NCBI RefSeq assembly: GCF_900115825.1
Contig: NZ_FOXW01000001.1
Span: 62,001 to 126,000, forward strand
Origin: Desemzia incerta
GTDB taxonomy: Bacteria > Bacillota > Bacilli > Lactobacillales > Carnobacteriaceae
DNA length: 64,000 nt
Direction of reading: 5' to 3'
Below are positions 9,720 to 20,658 of this stretch, one piece after another; within the stretch, counting starts at the first letter, position 1; each line of letters starts with the position of its first letter. The notes below the pieces were generated by a model. That model made no database searches. It was given only the letters and a program-made list of their open reading frames with translations, and was not told where the DNA came from. The position numbers were made by a program, and so were the translations under genes.

Positions 9720-11756
9720 ATGGATGATAACAGTAAATACCTGGAGTTGTTTTTCGAAGAGTCTGATGAACACATTCAAAGTTTGAATGACTGTGTATTA
9801 GACCTTGAGAGTGATCCAGAAAATCAAGAGATTATTGATGACATGTTTCGTTCAGCTCATACATTAAAAGGTATGGCCGGCACAATGGGATATGATTCAT
9901 TAGCGCAATTAACACATAAAATGGAAAACGTATTTGATCTATTAAAGAAAAAAATAATTAAAGCTGATTCACGTTCTATCGAACTGATCTTTAGTTGTTT
10001 GGATTCTATTTCTGCCATCGTAGAAGATTTGAGACAAGGCGGAGAAGGCGTTTTAGATGTAGCAGATTTAGTCGTGCGATTGAACGCTATCTCTGAAGGA
10101 GAACAAGACGTTTCTGTGGAAGAAAAAACAGTTGCGGAAAGTGACGATAATTTCAATTCGCAATTGCATTTTATTGACGAATCAGACGTAGCCGTAATCG
10201 AAAGTGCTGCTGCGGATGGCTACCAAGCCTATACCGTTACGATCAAGATTGAAGAAACTAGCGGTATGAAAAACGCTCGTGTCTTTCTTGTGATGAGCAA
10301 GTTAGATCAGCAAGGGGAAGTACTTCACTCTGAACCGAATGCAGAAGTATTGGAAAATGAAGATTTTGGTTCCATTTTCAAAGTTGTTTTACTGACTCAA
10401 GCAGATGAGGAAACACTTAAAGAGGCTGCACTGAACAACAGTGAAATTGAAGATGTGTTAGTAAAAGAATTTGACAGCAATGATGTCGTATCTGAAAAAG
10501 AGATCGAAGAAAAAGTTGTCCTTGAGGCAAAAGCTGTTCCTGTAGAAGAAGCGAAAAAAGAAACCGTCAAAAAAACAGCTTCTAAATCAACACAAAGCAA
10601 CCAAACTGTTCGAGTAGACATCACGAAATTAGATGATTTTTTGAATGCTGTTTCTGAATTGCTGATTTACCGAACACGTTTAGAAAGCATCAGTCAAGAC
10701 AACGAGATCAAAGAAATGAATGAGCCGTTGGAACAATTTGCGCGGATCACGACTGAATTGCAAGACTTGGTATTGAAGATTCGTCTTCAACCAGTCAGCA
10801 CAGTGATGACGAATTTCCCTCGTATGATTCGTGATCTTGGAAATGATTTAGGTAAGAAATACAATTTAGTGATCGAAGGCGGAGAAACCGAATTAGACCG
10901 GACAGTTGTTTCAGAACTAGGAGAACCTCTAATTCATTTGATTCGTAATGCTGCAGACCATGGAATCGAGATGCCTGAAGATCGTCAGAAAATCGGGAAA
11001 GATCCAGCAGGATTGATTCATATTTCAGCTTACCAAGAAGGCAACCGAGTCGTACTAACAGTGCGTGATGACGGGAAAGGTTTGAACCCTCAAGCTATCA
11101 AAGAGAGTGCTGAAAGGAAAGGTATTGTGACAACTGGATTGTCAGATCTCGAATTGCAGCATTTGATTTTCCATCCAGGATTTTCTACAGCTAAAGAAGT
11201 GACTGGAATTTCCGGACGTGGAGTTGGGATGGATGCTGTTCAACAGAAAATCCATTCATTAGGCGGAACAGTGGAAATTATCAGTGCAATAAACCAAGGA
11301 ACAACCTTTAAAATCAATTTGCCATTAACGCTGTCCATCATCGATTCATTGCTGATTAAAGTAGGAGACAGTACTTTTGCCATTCCACGAGGAATTATTG
11401 AAAAAGTTGTCAGTCCAGGTCCTGGTGAGATCATTCAAACATATGAAAATGAGATCTACACCACAGGCGGAGCTACACCGGTTATTCGTTTAACTGAAGT
11501 ATTAGGAATGGAAGAGACAAATAATCCAGAACCTTATTTGATCATTGTGAAACTTGGCGAAAATCGATTTGCATTGAAAATCGATGATATCATCAAACAA
11601 CAAGAGATCGTTATCAAAGATCTAGGAAAAGAGTTGTCCCAAGTAAACTGTTACTCAGGAGCCACAATTTTGGGAAATGGAGAAATCGTCTTGATCTTAG
11701 ATGTCACAGCCATTGCCAACGAAAGTCAAGGTGTTCAAAATGCCATCCGAGTTTAG
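9720..11756 (+). CDS. cheA: Chemotaxis histidine kinase CheA
   Basis: Central kinase of the chemotaxis array, 678 residues, cytosolic. P1 (about 1-105) carries the phospho-acceptor His47 in RSAHTLKGMAG. A linker and a CheY/CheB-binding P2 (about 150-255) follow, then a charged linker, the P3 dimerisation helices (about 295-360) and the P4 ATPase domain. P4 has the N box HLIRNAADHGIE (about 404), DDGKGL (about 450) and GRGVGMD (about 499). P5 (about 545-678) is CheW-like. Ribosome site AAAGGAGGG precedes the ATG. The 3' end overlaps cheC by 17 bases. Confidence 0.96.
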   Translation: MDDNSKYLELFFEESDEHIQSLNDCVLDLESDPENQEIIDDMFRSAHTLKGMAGTMGYDSLAQLTHKMENVFDLLKKKIIKADSRSIELIFSCLDSISAIVEDLRQGGEGVLDVADLVVRLNAISEGEQDVSVEEKTVAESDDNFNSQLHFIDESDVAVIESAAADGYQAYTVTIKIEETSGMKNARVFLVMSKLDQQGEVLHSEPNAEVLENEDFGSIFKVVLLTQADEETLKEAALNNSEIEDVLVKEFDSNDVVSEKEIEEKVVLEAKAVPVEEAKKETVKKTASKSTQSNQTVRVDITKLDDFLNAVSELLIYRTRLESISQDNEIKEMNEPLEQFARITTELQDLVLKIRLQPVSTVMTNFPRMIRDLGNDLGKKYNLVIEGGETELDRTVVSELGEPLIHLIRNAADHGIEMPEDRQKIGKDPAGLIHISAYQEGNRVVLTVRDDGKGLNPQAIKESAERKGIVTTGLSDLELQHLIFHPGFSTAKEVTGISGRGVGMDAVQQKIHSLGGTVEIISAINQGTTFKINLPLTLSIIDSLLIKVGDSTFAIPRGIIEKVVSPGPGEIIQTYENEIYTTGGATPVIRLTEVLGMEETNNPEPYLIIVKLGENRFALKIDDIIKQQEIVIKDLGKELSQVNCYSGATILGNGEIVLILDVTAIANESQGVQNAIRV

Positions 11757-12360
11757 TACAGTCCAATTAGATGCTTTAAAAGAAGTGATCAATATTGGTG
11801 GAGGAAATGCTGCAACCAGTTTATCTCAACTCATCAATAAACCGGTGCATATGACAGTGCCAACCATTGAAGTCATGGCATATGAAGATATGTTCGAACA
11901 AGTGATGTCAGAAGATACAATGATTGATGCGGTCCTGACAAAAATGTTTGGACAAGCAGAAGGAGTCTTCTTATTAGTAGGTTTAGAAGAAGATATGAAA
12001 CATTTAGCTTCTATTATGTTGCCGGAAAACAGTGAAACTATGTTGCCGGAAAACAGTGAAACAAATCCAGAGATGATTGACTCAGCTTTGAAAGAGTTAG
12101 CGAATATTTTAGTAAACTCATTTTTGAACGCTGTAACAAAACTGTTGGATATTAACTTATTGACATCCATTCCGTTGTTGACACGGGACATGTTTGGCGC
12201 CATAGTAAGTAGTGTCTATATGGAAAGTGGACAATATGATGATACGATCTTGATTTTAAAAAATGAATTTTATTACATGGGTGAGCGAATGGAAGCAGCG
12301 TTATACTTCGTTCCAACACCAGGCGTATTAGATAAATTATTTAGTGTATTAGGAGTTTGA
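11740..12360 (+). CDS. cheC: CheY-P phosphatase CheC
   Basis: CheC dephosphorylates CheY-P and binds CheD. I place the start at the ATG at 11740 (AAGGTG 6 bases upstream), inside the end of cheA; the 11701 frame start lies within cheA without a ribosome site. The product has 206 residues. Both phosphatase half-sites of the CheC/FliY family (D/S-x3-E-x2-N) are present: DALKEVIN near the start and SALKELAN near residue 115. Between them is a perfect 8-residue tandem repeat (MLPENSET twice), an in-frame 24-bp duplication. Homologues normally have one copy as far as I recall. Confidence 0.9.
   Translation: MPSEFSTVQLDALKEVINIGGGNAATSLSQLINKPVHMTVPTIEVMAYEDMFEQVMSEDTMIDAVLTKMFGQAEGVFLLVGLEEDMKHLASIMLPENSETMLPENSETNPEMIDSALKELANILVNSFLNAVTKLLDINLLTSIPLLTRDMFGAIVSSVYMESGQYDDTILILKNEFYYMGERMEAALYFVPTPGVLDKLFSVLGV
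12016..12063 (+). repeat. 24-bp tandem duplication inside cheC
   Basis: Copies at 12016-12039 and 12040-12063 differ at only the last base. Each encodes MLPENSET in frame. Such near-identity indicates a recent duplication by slippage. Confidence 0.95.
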
Positions 12361-15568: not shown

Positions 15569-15862
15569 ATGAAAATCAATAATGGATACAACCAATATGT
15601 GAATAATTCTCTCCGCTACAATAAAGAAACGACTGAAAATAAAAATATCAAACCTCAAGCAACAGTAAGTGAAGAGGCTGTAAAAGTAGAAATCTCAGAT
15701 GCTGCAAAACAAGTTGCTAAAGCCAATAACAATGCCGCATTCAGCGAAAGAGTACAAGCCATCAAACAAGCTGTATTAAATGGAACATATGAAGTTTCAC
15801 CTGAAAAAATCGCTGATAAAATGGTAGATGACATGAGTCAACAACGTGAGGGCATAGAATAA
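15569..15862 (+). CDS. flgM: Anti-sigma-28 factor FlgM
   Basis: Small protein (97 residues) that binds FliA until it is exported after hook completion. The C-terminal half has the family pattern: VEISDAAKQVAKANNN, then RVQAIKQAVLNGTYEVSPEKIADKMVDDM, close to the FlgM consensus. The N-terminal part is polar and probably disordered. AGAAAGGAG precedes the ATG. It is the first gene behind a sigma-28 promoter, which gives FliA control of its own inhibitor. The stop overlaps the flgN start (TAATG). Confidence 0.92.
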   Translation: MKINNGYNQYVNNSLRYNKETTENKNIKPQATVSEEAVKVEISDAAKQVAKANNNAAFSERVQAIKQAVLNGTYEVSPEKIADKMVDDMSQQREGIE

Positions 15863-17695: not shown

Positions 17696-18631
17696 ATGAG
17701 AATAACTGATTCTTACATGTCTTCGAATTTTATCAATAACCTTCAAAGCAATCTAAAAAACCTTTCTAAAGTCCAAAATCAATTATCTTCTTTAAAAGAA
17801 GTAAGCAAATCTTCAGACAATCCTATGTTGGTATCAGAAATAATGGATTTAAACAACAGTATTATCCAAAATGAAGAATACATGCTAACAATCAAAGATT
17901 CGATTGATTTTTCAAACATGCAAGACAGTGCGTATGATGCAGCAACAAAATCTTTATCTCGAATACGTACATTGATTCAACAAGCAGCAACAGGTACCGT
18001 AAATAATGACGATCGCAAAATAATCAAAGAAGAAGTTGAAGCAGAAATTCAGACATTAACTGATGCTTTGAATACTAATTTCGGCGGGAAATATATTTTT
18101 TCTGGGCAAAACACGACCACTAAACCATTCAGTATTGAAAGAGATGCTAATGGTGAAATGACAGGTTTGAATTATGCCGGTACAACTGATGAAGGTACAA
18201 GTGGTAATCTAACAAGAAGAATAGCTCAAGGCGTTACCGTTGAACTCAAAACAGATGGTAGGGAATTATTGAATGAACGAAATTCGATTGATACACCAGA
18301 TAATTTAGGTACCTTCTTAGCAAGAACCTTATCAGCTTTGGAAACAGGAAATGTTGAATCTTTATCTGGTGAATTACTTGTTAGAGCAGAGCAAGAAATA
18401 GATAATATCGTTACGAATAGAACTGAAAATGGAGCAATATTCAATCGATTAGAAGCAGCTAAAGAACGTAGTACAGCTGAAAATTTGAATTTGGAATCGA
18501 TGCGTTCAGATAAACAAGATATAGATTTAGCTGAAAAATTTATGGAGTATACTATGGAGCAGACCGCTTACCAAGCATCGTTAGCGATGGGGACAAAAAT
18601 ATTATCTACTAGTATTTTAGACTATCTGTAA
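17696..18631 (+). CDS. flgL: Hook-filament junction protein FlgL (HAP3)
   Basis: Flagellin-like axial protein of 311 residues. N-terminal MRITDSYMSSNFINNLQSNL and the LSSLKEVSKSSDNP block (matching the flagellin D0/D1 helix) are present, and the C-terminal half ends with DLAEKFMEYTMEQTAYQASL. The stop codon lies within the loop of the transcription terminator, so a ribosome finishing flgL would cover the hairpin. It ends the flgM operon. Confidence 0.94.
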   Translation: MRITDSYMSSNFINNLQSNLKNLSKVQNQLSSLKEVSKSSDNPMLVSEIMDLNNSIIQNEEYMLTIKDSIDFSNMQDSAYDAATKSLSRIRTLIQQAATGTVNNDDRKIIKEEVEAEIQTLTDALNTNFGGKYIFSGQNTTTKPFSIERDANGEMTGLNYAGTTDEGTSGNLTRRIAQGVTVELKTDGRELLNERNSIDTPDNLGTFLARTLSALETGNVESLSGELLVRAEQEIDNIVTNRTENGAIFNRLEAAKERSTAENLNLESMRSDKQDIDLAEKFMEYTMEQTAYQASLAMGTKILSTSILDYL

Positions 18632-18653
18632 AAGATAGTCTTTTTTTTTTTTA
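18619..18653 (+). terminator. Terminator overlapping the flgL stop codon
   Basis: There are perfect 9-bp arms (18619-18627 and 18633-18641), a GTAAA loop that contains the TAA stop of flgL, and a run of T of about 12. Confidence 0.88.
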
Positions 18654-18673
18654 TAAAAGAAAAATAAAGTACT

Positions 18674-18700
18674 TAACTACCTGTCAAACTGTCCGATATA
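18674..18700 (+). promoter_or_regulatory. Sigma-28 promoter before the flagellin genes
   Basis: TAAC at 18674-18677, 15-bp spacer, CCGATATA at 18693-18700. The bases before the -10 (ACTGT) are the same as before flgM. It lies 46 bp before the first flagellin start. Confidence 0.87.
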
Positions 18701-18745: not shown

Positions 18746-19621
18746 ATGAGAATCAATACAAATACAGCAGCAATGAATACTTACTCACGTTTAGGTTCAG
18801 CAAATGCAGCAAAAAGCAGCTCATTAGCTAAATTATCATCAGGTTTACGTATCAACAAAGCTGGAGATGATGCAGCAGGATTATCCATTTCAGAAAAAAT
18901 GAAAAATCAAATTAGTGGCTTAACTCAAGCAACACGTAATGCACAAGATGGGATCTCATTGATCCAAACAGCTGAAGGTGCTCTAAACGAAACACACAGT
19001 ATCTTGAACCGTATGCGTGATCTTTCTGTTCAAGCAGCAAATGGAACTAATAGTACAGAAGATTTGGAAGCAATTCAGTCTGAAATTACTGAACTTACTA
19101 CTGAAATAGATAGAATTGCAGAAACTACTGAGTTCAATGGTACAAAACTGTTAAATGGAGACGCATCAGTAAAATTACAAATTGGTTCAAAAACAAGTGC
19201 GAATGACTCATTAACAATTGACATAGATGGTATGGGTAAGGGAGATATTGGGGCTGTTGCATCTGACGGTACTACTACGGGAGTGGTATTAGAGGATATA
19301 GATGTTAGAGTAGAAGACCCGAAAAATGATGGAACTATAACGGGTGCTGAACAAGCTATAAAATCAATTGACAATGCTATTGCAGCTGTATCAGAAGAAC
19401 GTTCAAAACTAGGTGCAAATCAAAATCGTTTGGATCACACAATCAATAATTTAACAACTACAAAAGAAAATTTAACTGAAGCAAATTCACGTATTCGTGA
19501 TGTTGATATGGCTGAAGAAATGATGAGCTTTACTAAATCTAATATCCTTTCTCAAGCTTCAACAGCGATGTTGGCTCAAGCTAACCAAATGCCTCAAGGC
19601 GTTTTACAATTATTACAATAA
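18746..19621 (+). CDS. fliC: Flagellin 1
   Basis: Filament subunit of 291 residues. N-terminal D0/D1 (about 1-137: [37 protein letters not shown]) and C-terminal D1/D0 (about 215-291, ending [10 protein letters not shown]) are standard. The variable middle (about 138-210) is short. It holds DPKNDGTITGAE (191-202), which resembles an EF-hand loop at positions 1, 5, 6, 8 and 12 but has Lys at position 3. The ends are nearly identical to flagellin 2, which follows 44 bp downstream. The sigma-28 promoter is upstream. Strong AGGAGG ribosome site. Confidence 0.96.
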   Translation: MRINTNTAAMNTYSRLGSANAAKSSSLAKLSSGLRINKAGDDAAGLSISEKMKNQISGLTQATRNAQDGISLIQTAEGALNETHSILNRMRDLSVQAANGTNSTEDLEAIQSEITELTTEIDRIAETTEFNGTKLLNGDASVKLQIGSKTSANDSLTIDIDGMGKGDIGAVASDGTTTGVVLEDIDVRVEDPKNDGTITGAEQAIKSIDNAIAAVSEERSKLGANQNRLDHTINNLTTTKENLTEANSRIRDVDMAEEMMSFTKSNILSQASTAMLAQANQMPQGVLQLLQ

Positions 19622-19665
19622 TCAACAAAAAAACTTATTAATCAATCATTAGGAGGAAATACATC

Positions 19666-20604
19666 ATGAGAATCAATACAAATACAGCAGCAATGAATAC
19701 TTACTCACGTTTAGGTTCAGCAAACGCAGCAAAAAGTAGCTCATTAGCTAAATTATCTTCAGGACTACGCATCAACAAAGCTGGAGATGATGCAGCAGGA
19801 TTATCCATTTCAGAAAAAATGAAAAACCAAATCAGCGGATTAACACAAGCTACTCGTAATGCACAAGATGGAATTTCATTAATTCAAACAGCTGAAGGCG
19901 CGTTGAATGAGACACACAGTATCCTGAACCGTATGCGTGATTTATCTGTCCAAGCAGCAAATGGAACTAATAGTACAGAAGATTTGAAAGCAATTCAGTC
20001 TGAAATTACTGAACTTACTAACGAAATAGATAGAATTGCAGGAACAACTGAATTTAATGGTACTAAACTACTGAACGGTGATGCTGATGTTACTCTTCAA
20101 ATTGGAGCAAACGCAGGTGGACAAGATAAACTAAATATAACCGTTAGAGATATGAGTTCCAACTATCTAGGCCAATCATATGCAGACGACCAAACAACTT
20201 CAACAGGAGGAACTCTTCTTTCTGATATTGATGTAACTAACGTAGATGCTGCAGCAGTAGCAGCAAGTGATGGTCCAGATGGAATAGCAGGTAATGCTGA
20301 TGACGTTGGTGCTAGCCCAGCCACTGGTCCATCAGCTGCAATTGAGGCAATTGATAACGCTATTGCTACTGTATCAGAAGAACGTTCAAAATTAGGAGCA
20401 AACCAAAACCGTTTAGATCATACAATCAATAACTTAACAACTACAAAAGAAAATTTAACTGAAGCAAACTCACGTATTCGTGATGTTGATATGGCTGAAG
20501 AAATGATGAGCTTTACTAAATCAAACATCCTTTCTCAAGCTTCAACAGCAATGTTGGCTCAAGCTAACCAAATGCCTCAAGGCGTTTTACAATTATTACA
20601 ATAA
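19666..20604 (+). CDS. Flagellin 2
   Basis: Second filament subunit of 312 residues. It is nearly identical to flagellin 1 over residues 1-137 and in the last 80 or so residues; the middle (about 138-232) is unrelated and longer. It includes an Asp/Gly-rich stretch [12 protein letters not shown] (202-213). No separate sigma-28 promoter is seen in the 44-bp gap, so both genes are probably read from the promoter at 18674. AGGAGG precedes the ATG. A strong terminator follows. Identity between the two genes is patchy at silent sites, which suggests gene conversion. Confidence 0.95.
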
Positions 20605-20626: not shown

Positions 20627-20658
20627 AATAAAAAGCCGACTCTAGTCGGCTTTTTATT
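20627..20658 (+). terminator. Terminator after the flagellin genes
   Basis: Arms of 14 bp (20627-20640 and 20645-20658) with a TCTA loop; the 3' arm itself supplies the T-run. Confidence 0.88.

Follow-up and report, generated by a model that had tools for sequence, protein, structure and literature searches.

Patchy silent-site homogenisation in a tandem flagellin pair of Desemzia incerta suggests recombination between the two copies

The flagellar gene cluster of the Carnobacteriaceae member Desemzia incerta, ordered flgL, flaA, flaB, flaG, fliD within the 64,000-nucleotide stretch of DNA analysed here (the window), contains two adjacent flagellin genes that are alike at both ends and unrelated in the middle, raising the question of how parts of the two copies have remained alike and others have not. 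Both genes are read on the forward strand, flaA at 18746-19621 (291 aa; Pfam Flagellin_N 5e-47, Flagellin_C 9.4e-32) and flaB at 19666-20604 (312 aa; 3.1e-47 and 8.1e-32), and both pass the Pfam cut-offs of the two domains, identifying them as bacterial flagellins. Among solved structures, the best match of flaA is the flagellin 5wjt over residues 1-290. With 348.8 and 349.4 bits the pair misses the curated cut-off of 352 bits of NCBIfam PRK12804.1 (flagellin Hag) and is therefore not filed under that label; both proteins are flagellins of the ordinary kind. A model of flaA computed with AlphaFold2 from 21 sequences (mean pLDDT 80.0, pTM 0.61) predicts helices at residues 3-98, 104-127 and 200-290, separated by strands and loops, and places the unrelated middle between the helical arms. 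In the filament, the flagellin middle generally faces outwards. Elsewhere in the window, a perfect 24-base tandem duplication (2.0 copies) at 12015-12062 repeats the peptide MLPENSET within the frame 11701-12360, a 97-aa frame at 15569-15862, directly before the FlgN gene, appears FlgM-like by eye, and no RNA family reaches its gathering score.

The contrast between alike ends and unrelated middles, already pointed out in a preliminary description of the locus, is borne out by the proteins, which are identical at residues 1-107 and over their last 77 residues and share 38% identity over 58 aligned positions, with 33 gap columns, in the middle (flaA residues 140-205). At silent sites (all coordinates on the forward strand), divergence of flaA from flaB is low over codons 1-53 (18746-18904; 6/50), strong over codons 54-95, where the protein is identical (18905-19030; 19/41), absent over codons 96-125 (19031-19120; 0/28; flaB partner at 19951-20040) and low again over codons 241-291 and the stop (19466-19621; 4/46). 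Codons 126-240 (19121-19465) consist of diverged flanks, 12/17 at codons 126-145 and 11/33 at codons 205-240, around the unrelated middle. A recount returned the differences first reported for this pair, namely 14, all silent, between the 90 bases of 18941-19030 and 19861-19950, and three between 19031-19120 and 19951-20040, which fall in two codons, change amino acids (E108K and T119N) and include no silent one. The last 150 bases, described as nearly identical, differ at four positions, all silent. An assembly artefact, in the form of a collapsed or chimeric repeat, could be suspected from the 44-nt gap between the genes, unusual next to the 124-234 nt (once 827 nt) of other arrays, and from the three or four copies possible in relatives; the longest exact run common to flaA and flaB is nevertheless about 60 nt, shorter than ordinary reads, and the pair sits within a contig of 593 kb, making such an origin highly improbable.

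Silent divergence between the two genes is not uniform but patchy in run, dispersion and change-point tests, with tract borders that constraint does not explain. In the run test, per-site silent rates were taken from pairs in different genomes and permutation was plain or weighted. The clean run of 28 sites gave P values of 0.001 (plain) and 0.0034 (weighted) in the N-terminal domain, 0.0081 and 0.0156 over both domains, and 0.0043 in a weighted rerun over codons 1-140, and the dispersion of silent differences gave 0.0032 in the N-terminal domain, 0.0004 over both domains and 0.0009 in a rerun. Patchiness was not significant in the C-terminal domain alone (run P 0.51, dispersion 0.25). A change-point fit supplied with the number of segments, not their borders, divided the first half at six segments into codons 2-53 (6/50), 54-95 (19/41) and 96-125 (0/28) and the second half into codons 127-210 (15/21), 211-235 (8/24) and 236-291 (4/51), a gain reached by none of 100 permutations, as was also the case for four segments. 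With seven segments, codons 2-53 were split into 0/17, 6/16 and 0/17 and two segments past codon 126 were merged. On the run and change-point tests, recombination is the best reading of the sharp change at silent sites, as had been proposed, and codons 96-125 are read as a converted tract; the recent date attached to that proposal is something we infer. In the predicted structure the tract corresponds to the second N-terminal helix and its lead-in. It holds two replacement and no silent differences, a composition that mutation after conversion need not produce and that involves too few changes to judge. Gene conversion is not distinguishable here from double crossover or from the uptake of sister-genome DNA.

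The same likeness might have arisen without recombination, through purifying selection combined with codon or RNA constraint, which would be in keeping with a protein identical across the ends and with the rather close silent resemblance of codons 1-53 to Carnobacterium copies (8-17 of 46). Codon constraint does not explain the identical tract, however, because codons 96-125 show ordinary between-species silent rates (0.39-0.51 per site), and the adjoining block, equally of identical protein, is the one that differs at 19 of 41 sites; we regard this explanation as very unlikely. CsrA often accompanies hag in Bacillus, and its control of the start region was considered as a cause of the identical 5' ends, a candidate rejected since CsrA has no match in the D. 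incerta genome.

If tandem copies evolve in concert, paralogues should resemble each other at silent sites more than orthologues do. This is observed in codons 96-125 and 241-291, where flaA and flaB are both closest and sisters; in codons 1-53 they are closest (6/50, next 8/46), yet not sisters in the best tree, and in codons 54-95 the excess is not seen. For codons 96-125 of flaA, flaB is by far the closest in a panel of 39 genes (97% of bases; next 82%). Over codons 54-95, on the other hand, the silent distance between flaA and flaB (19/41) is about as large as the distance between species or that of either copy from the congener, flaA being nearer the third copy of the congener G001 (14/41), and a search of 198 genomes with flaA codons 54-96 found seven matches, in five other genomes, scoring above flaB. 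Block trees, built from 23 of the 39 panel genes, recovered flaA and flaB as sisters in three of five blocks, trees of single blocks being weak. For codons 54-95 and 1-53, where the best tree does not join them, the sister grouping was not rejected (p-AU 0.185 and 0.442), AU tests on single short blocks giving little. The pair is consequently either an old one that has been homogenised in part or a young one in which parts have been replaced.

A second mosaic, which was unexpected, bears on this choice. Among 11 loci, the nearest FlgL, FlaG and FliD are those of the congener (84, 68 and 66%, compared with 55, 33 and 45% to Marinilactibacillus piezotolerans), while flaA and flaB have their top score with M. 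piezotolerans (76 and 74%). Over the inner part (codons 96-145 and 205-240), both proteins reach 88% to M. piezotolerans and at most 62% to the 11 loci compared from the same family. When inner-block similarity was taken relative to FlgL for 276 pairs of 24 loci, this genome with M. piezotolerans ranked highest (z 4.3) and G001 with G005 second (z 4.2). Those two genomes belong to separate genera, yet their flagellins are 99% alike over the outer blocks and 88% over the inner ones while their FlgL are 58% alike, which makes a flagellin transfer likely. A search of the 198 genomes with the flaB middle found only M. piezotolerans (40%) besides itself, and in sliding windows the better match of flaA turns from its own family to M. 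piezotolerans at about codons 90-100 and back at about codon 235. Plasmid records gave 18 matches of 67-74% identity; 12 carry a flagellin annotation, and no gene is listed for the other 6.

Trees of the two parts, whose groups were picked after earlier trees had been viewed, gave a mixed result. For the inner block, the best tree groups the genome with M. piezotolerans (91/94 for DNA, 99/100 for protein); placement with its own family gave p-AU 0.002 with 33 rows, 0.169 with 29 rows and 0.0995 for protein, and placement with G001 and G005 gave 0.078 (33-row DNA) and 0.206 (protein). The inner protein tree is poor at family relations, since it puts G001 and G005 among the other family. For the outer blocks, grouping with M. 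piezotolerans was rejected for DNA (p-AU 8e-5) and not for protein (0.078), the outer protein blocks being slightly nearer M. piezotolerans (95%, with z raised to 2.5) than the congener (93%). The 33-row trees were obtained from 49 genes by removal of 13 of other families and of L151_1, L151_2 and L152_1, and the 29-row inner DNA and protein trees by further removal of L042, L043, L048 and L051; a regular-expression scan of 29 further loci had supplied 18 new genes, the other 11 loci adding no new row (identical or unmatched). An import of the inner part, in either direction, is plausible on these comparisons. A foreign origin is put no higher than a possibility, the tree tests disagreeing.

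Accepting such an import for the pair itself leads to the alternative of a young tandem duplication that later became mosaic through imported diverged segments, the identical tract being a remnant. It would suit the resemblance of the inner parts to M. piezotolerans at a locus whose FlgL, FlaG and FliD resemble the congener, as well as the closer silent match of flaA codons 54-95 to the congener than to flaB. On the seven-segment fit, however, it requires independent imports near codons 20-35, 54-95 and 127-231, and no match above 88% to flaA codons 54-96 was found in the 198 genomes with the flaA block as query. The old pair is favoured because a young one needs several imports without known donor, and we judge the young duplication unlikely.

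The explanation that we consider probable is therefore an old tandem flagellin pair, served by one sigma-28-type promoter, whose core parts have been patchily homogenised by recombination between the copies. Homologous recombination, as gene conversion, would keep parts of the helical core alike, most clearly over codons 96-125, and purifying selection would preserve an identical core protein in places where the silent sites have diverged. The middles would be too different to recombine and thus remain distinct, and both products would most likely enter one filament, whose surface would then carry two kinds of subunit. A more tentative extension, which we put forward with considerable doubt, is that these flagellins are put together from two exchangeable parts that meet near codons 95 and 240. 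One would be a lineage-bound core formed by the long first helix and the C-terminal half; the other, an outer module, would comprise the second helix, the surface middle and the beginning of the last helix and would move between genera. Tandem copies could then act as a landing site, and conversion could carry the edge of a new module to the neighbouring copy, which would explain why the clean tract starts about where the foreign affinity starts.

Patchiness of this kind between copies is also seen in relatives, which carry two to four flagellin copies. At least two flagellins in a row were found at 14 of 23 loci (in two of them a contig end truncates a gene) in a set partly chosen for this, and the expression used to find arrays missed further copies in G176 and G183. 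The N-terminal run test was significant at P<0.05 in 9 of 25 within-array pairs (8/24 without flaA/flaB), compared with 2.3% of 836 between-genome control pairs, of which 0.5% fell below 0.01 in this test. Dispersion was significant at P<0.01 in 4 of 25 within-array pairs; flaA/flaB is among the positives of both tests, and 16 of the 25 pairs lack a significant N-terminal run. Simulations numbered 500 per control pair and 10,000 per within-array pair, the control pairs also supplying the rates. Within-array pairs have genes in common and are not independent, and several arrays were fetched for holding more than one copy, so 8/24 is no frequency estimate for the order. In this comparison, with one genome per species, the general layout is common, but the longest homogenised stretch sits at differing positions among the relatives, as expected of separate events, and the identical pattern that could have spoken against the preliminary description was not found.

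In the congener G001, copies 2 and 3 differ at 8 of 133 silent sites in the N-terminal part, compared with 47 of 130 between copy 2 and G005; the middle of copy 2 is 82% identical in amino acids to G005, without gaps, and 58% identical, with 17 gap columns, to copy 3. Copy 2 of Carnobacterium jeotgali (G012) shows the same discordance with copy 2 of G011. The tree tests of the two cases, made with 11 of the 39 panel genes, are only suggestive of discordance (for G001, p-AU 0.08 with the N-terminal tree and 0.094 with the middle tree; for Carnobacterium, 0.229 and 0.0335). The 124-nt stretches preceding copies 2 and 3 of G001 read identical, so homogenisation or duplication there took in the promoter region. 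At the G162 locus, copies 1 and 3 are near-identical throughout and the intervening copy 2 differs in the block with the variable insert. In G022, with four flagellins in a row, the box of copies 2-4 ends in CGATAG and that of copy 1 in CCGATAA; the variant boxes are possibly weaker promoters.

The arrangement of signals around the pair relates to its expression. A terminator-like hairpin with a T-run (18619-18650, forward strand) lies behind flgL and upstream of flaA, followed by a sigma-28-like box, TTAA-N16-CCGATAT (18673-18699, forward strand), recognised from the general sigma-28 consensus. The flaA-flaB gap (19622-19665, forward strand) contains a ribosome-binding site, AGGAGG, and neither a sigma-28-like box nor a listed terminator, so the two flagellins are probably made together, in an operon-like manner; a terminator-like hairpin behind flaB (20630-20655, forward strand) was noted by eye and is not among the hairpins of the scan. 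Of 18 second-or-later array copies checked, 15 match a strict or loose box pattern, copies 2 and 3 of G001 carry a near-match by eye (TTAA-N16-CCGATTA), and flaB is without any.

These features also speak to antigenic variation, in which middles would be exchanged between flaA and flaB or with silent copies, a purpose proposed for fla recombination in Campylobacter (excerpt of PMC5126078) and one that constant ends with differing middles would allow. The suggestion that the pair swaps its variable middles to alter the filament surface was not supported: the middles are unrelated, like sequence is found nowhere else in the genome, and flaB has no promoter-like box of its own, which makes alternate expression unlikely. 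No further middle cassettes were found in the assembly, there is no sign of middles moving between copies, and neither alternate expression nor silent donors, either of which would mark flagellar antigenic or phase variation, is indicated by the sequence. Silent donor cassettes were rejected as a candidate: searched against the genome, each middle recovered its own copy, the edge it has in common with the adjacent gene (36 and 33 bases) and short stretches no longer than 28 bases. We give antigenic variation hardly any credence, and the homogenised old pair is retained.

The pair offers a clear and testable case of partial concerted evolution in Gram-positive Lactobacillales, with tract borders resolvable at silent sites, and its relatives, with two to four copies and homogenised stretches in different places, lend themselves to a comparative study of how conversion maintains a compatible filament core as the surfaces diversify. 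Among open-licence titles and abstract openings on flagellins of Desemzia, Marinilactibacillus and Carnobacterium, no treatment of such pairs was found. In other lineages, one close parallel is Campylobacter flaA/flaB, duplicate flagellin genes with signs of recombination between copies, for which recombination and concerted evolution have been published (excerpt of PMC5126078, citing Harrington 1997, Wassenaar 1995, Meinersmann and Hiett 2000); there, however, flaB is under sigma-54 control and its partner under sigma-28 control, whereas the present pair has a single sigma-28-like box and no second. The tandem fla copies of Alteromonadales, listed in a survey of recurrent concerted evolution (PMC6053082), are likewise more alike within than between species, but that survey considered homogenisation along the full gene and left partial cases for the future, and that of the present pair is patchy. 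Within Lactobacillales, Lactobacillus (Ligilactobacillus) ruminis ATCC27782 also has two flagellin genes, fliC1 and fliC2, which, unlike this pair, are 98% identical and have a predicted sigma-28 promoter each, fliC2 alone being highly expressed, according to the excerpt of PMC3393694. Tandem flagellins in one operon are also known as fliC1-fliC2-fliC3 in Stenotrophomonas maltophilia, an unrelated lineage, where mutants indicate that flagellin composition affects filament form and conversion is unmentioned in the abstract (PMC8998449). Flagellin hypervariable regions have been proposed to spread by recombination ending in conserved regions (excerpt of PMC7018530), and the flagellins described there share with this pair the conserved ends, the variable middle and a proposed movement between species; in contrast, the foreign affinity seen here seems to cover the second N-terminal helix as well, together with the beginning of the C-terminal helix. 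Taken together, recombination-driven evolution of duplicated flagellins is already known elsewhere, and the flaA-flaB pair of D. incerta is a new example of it.
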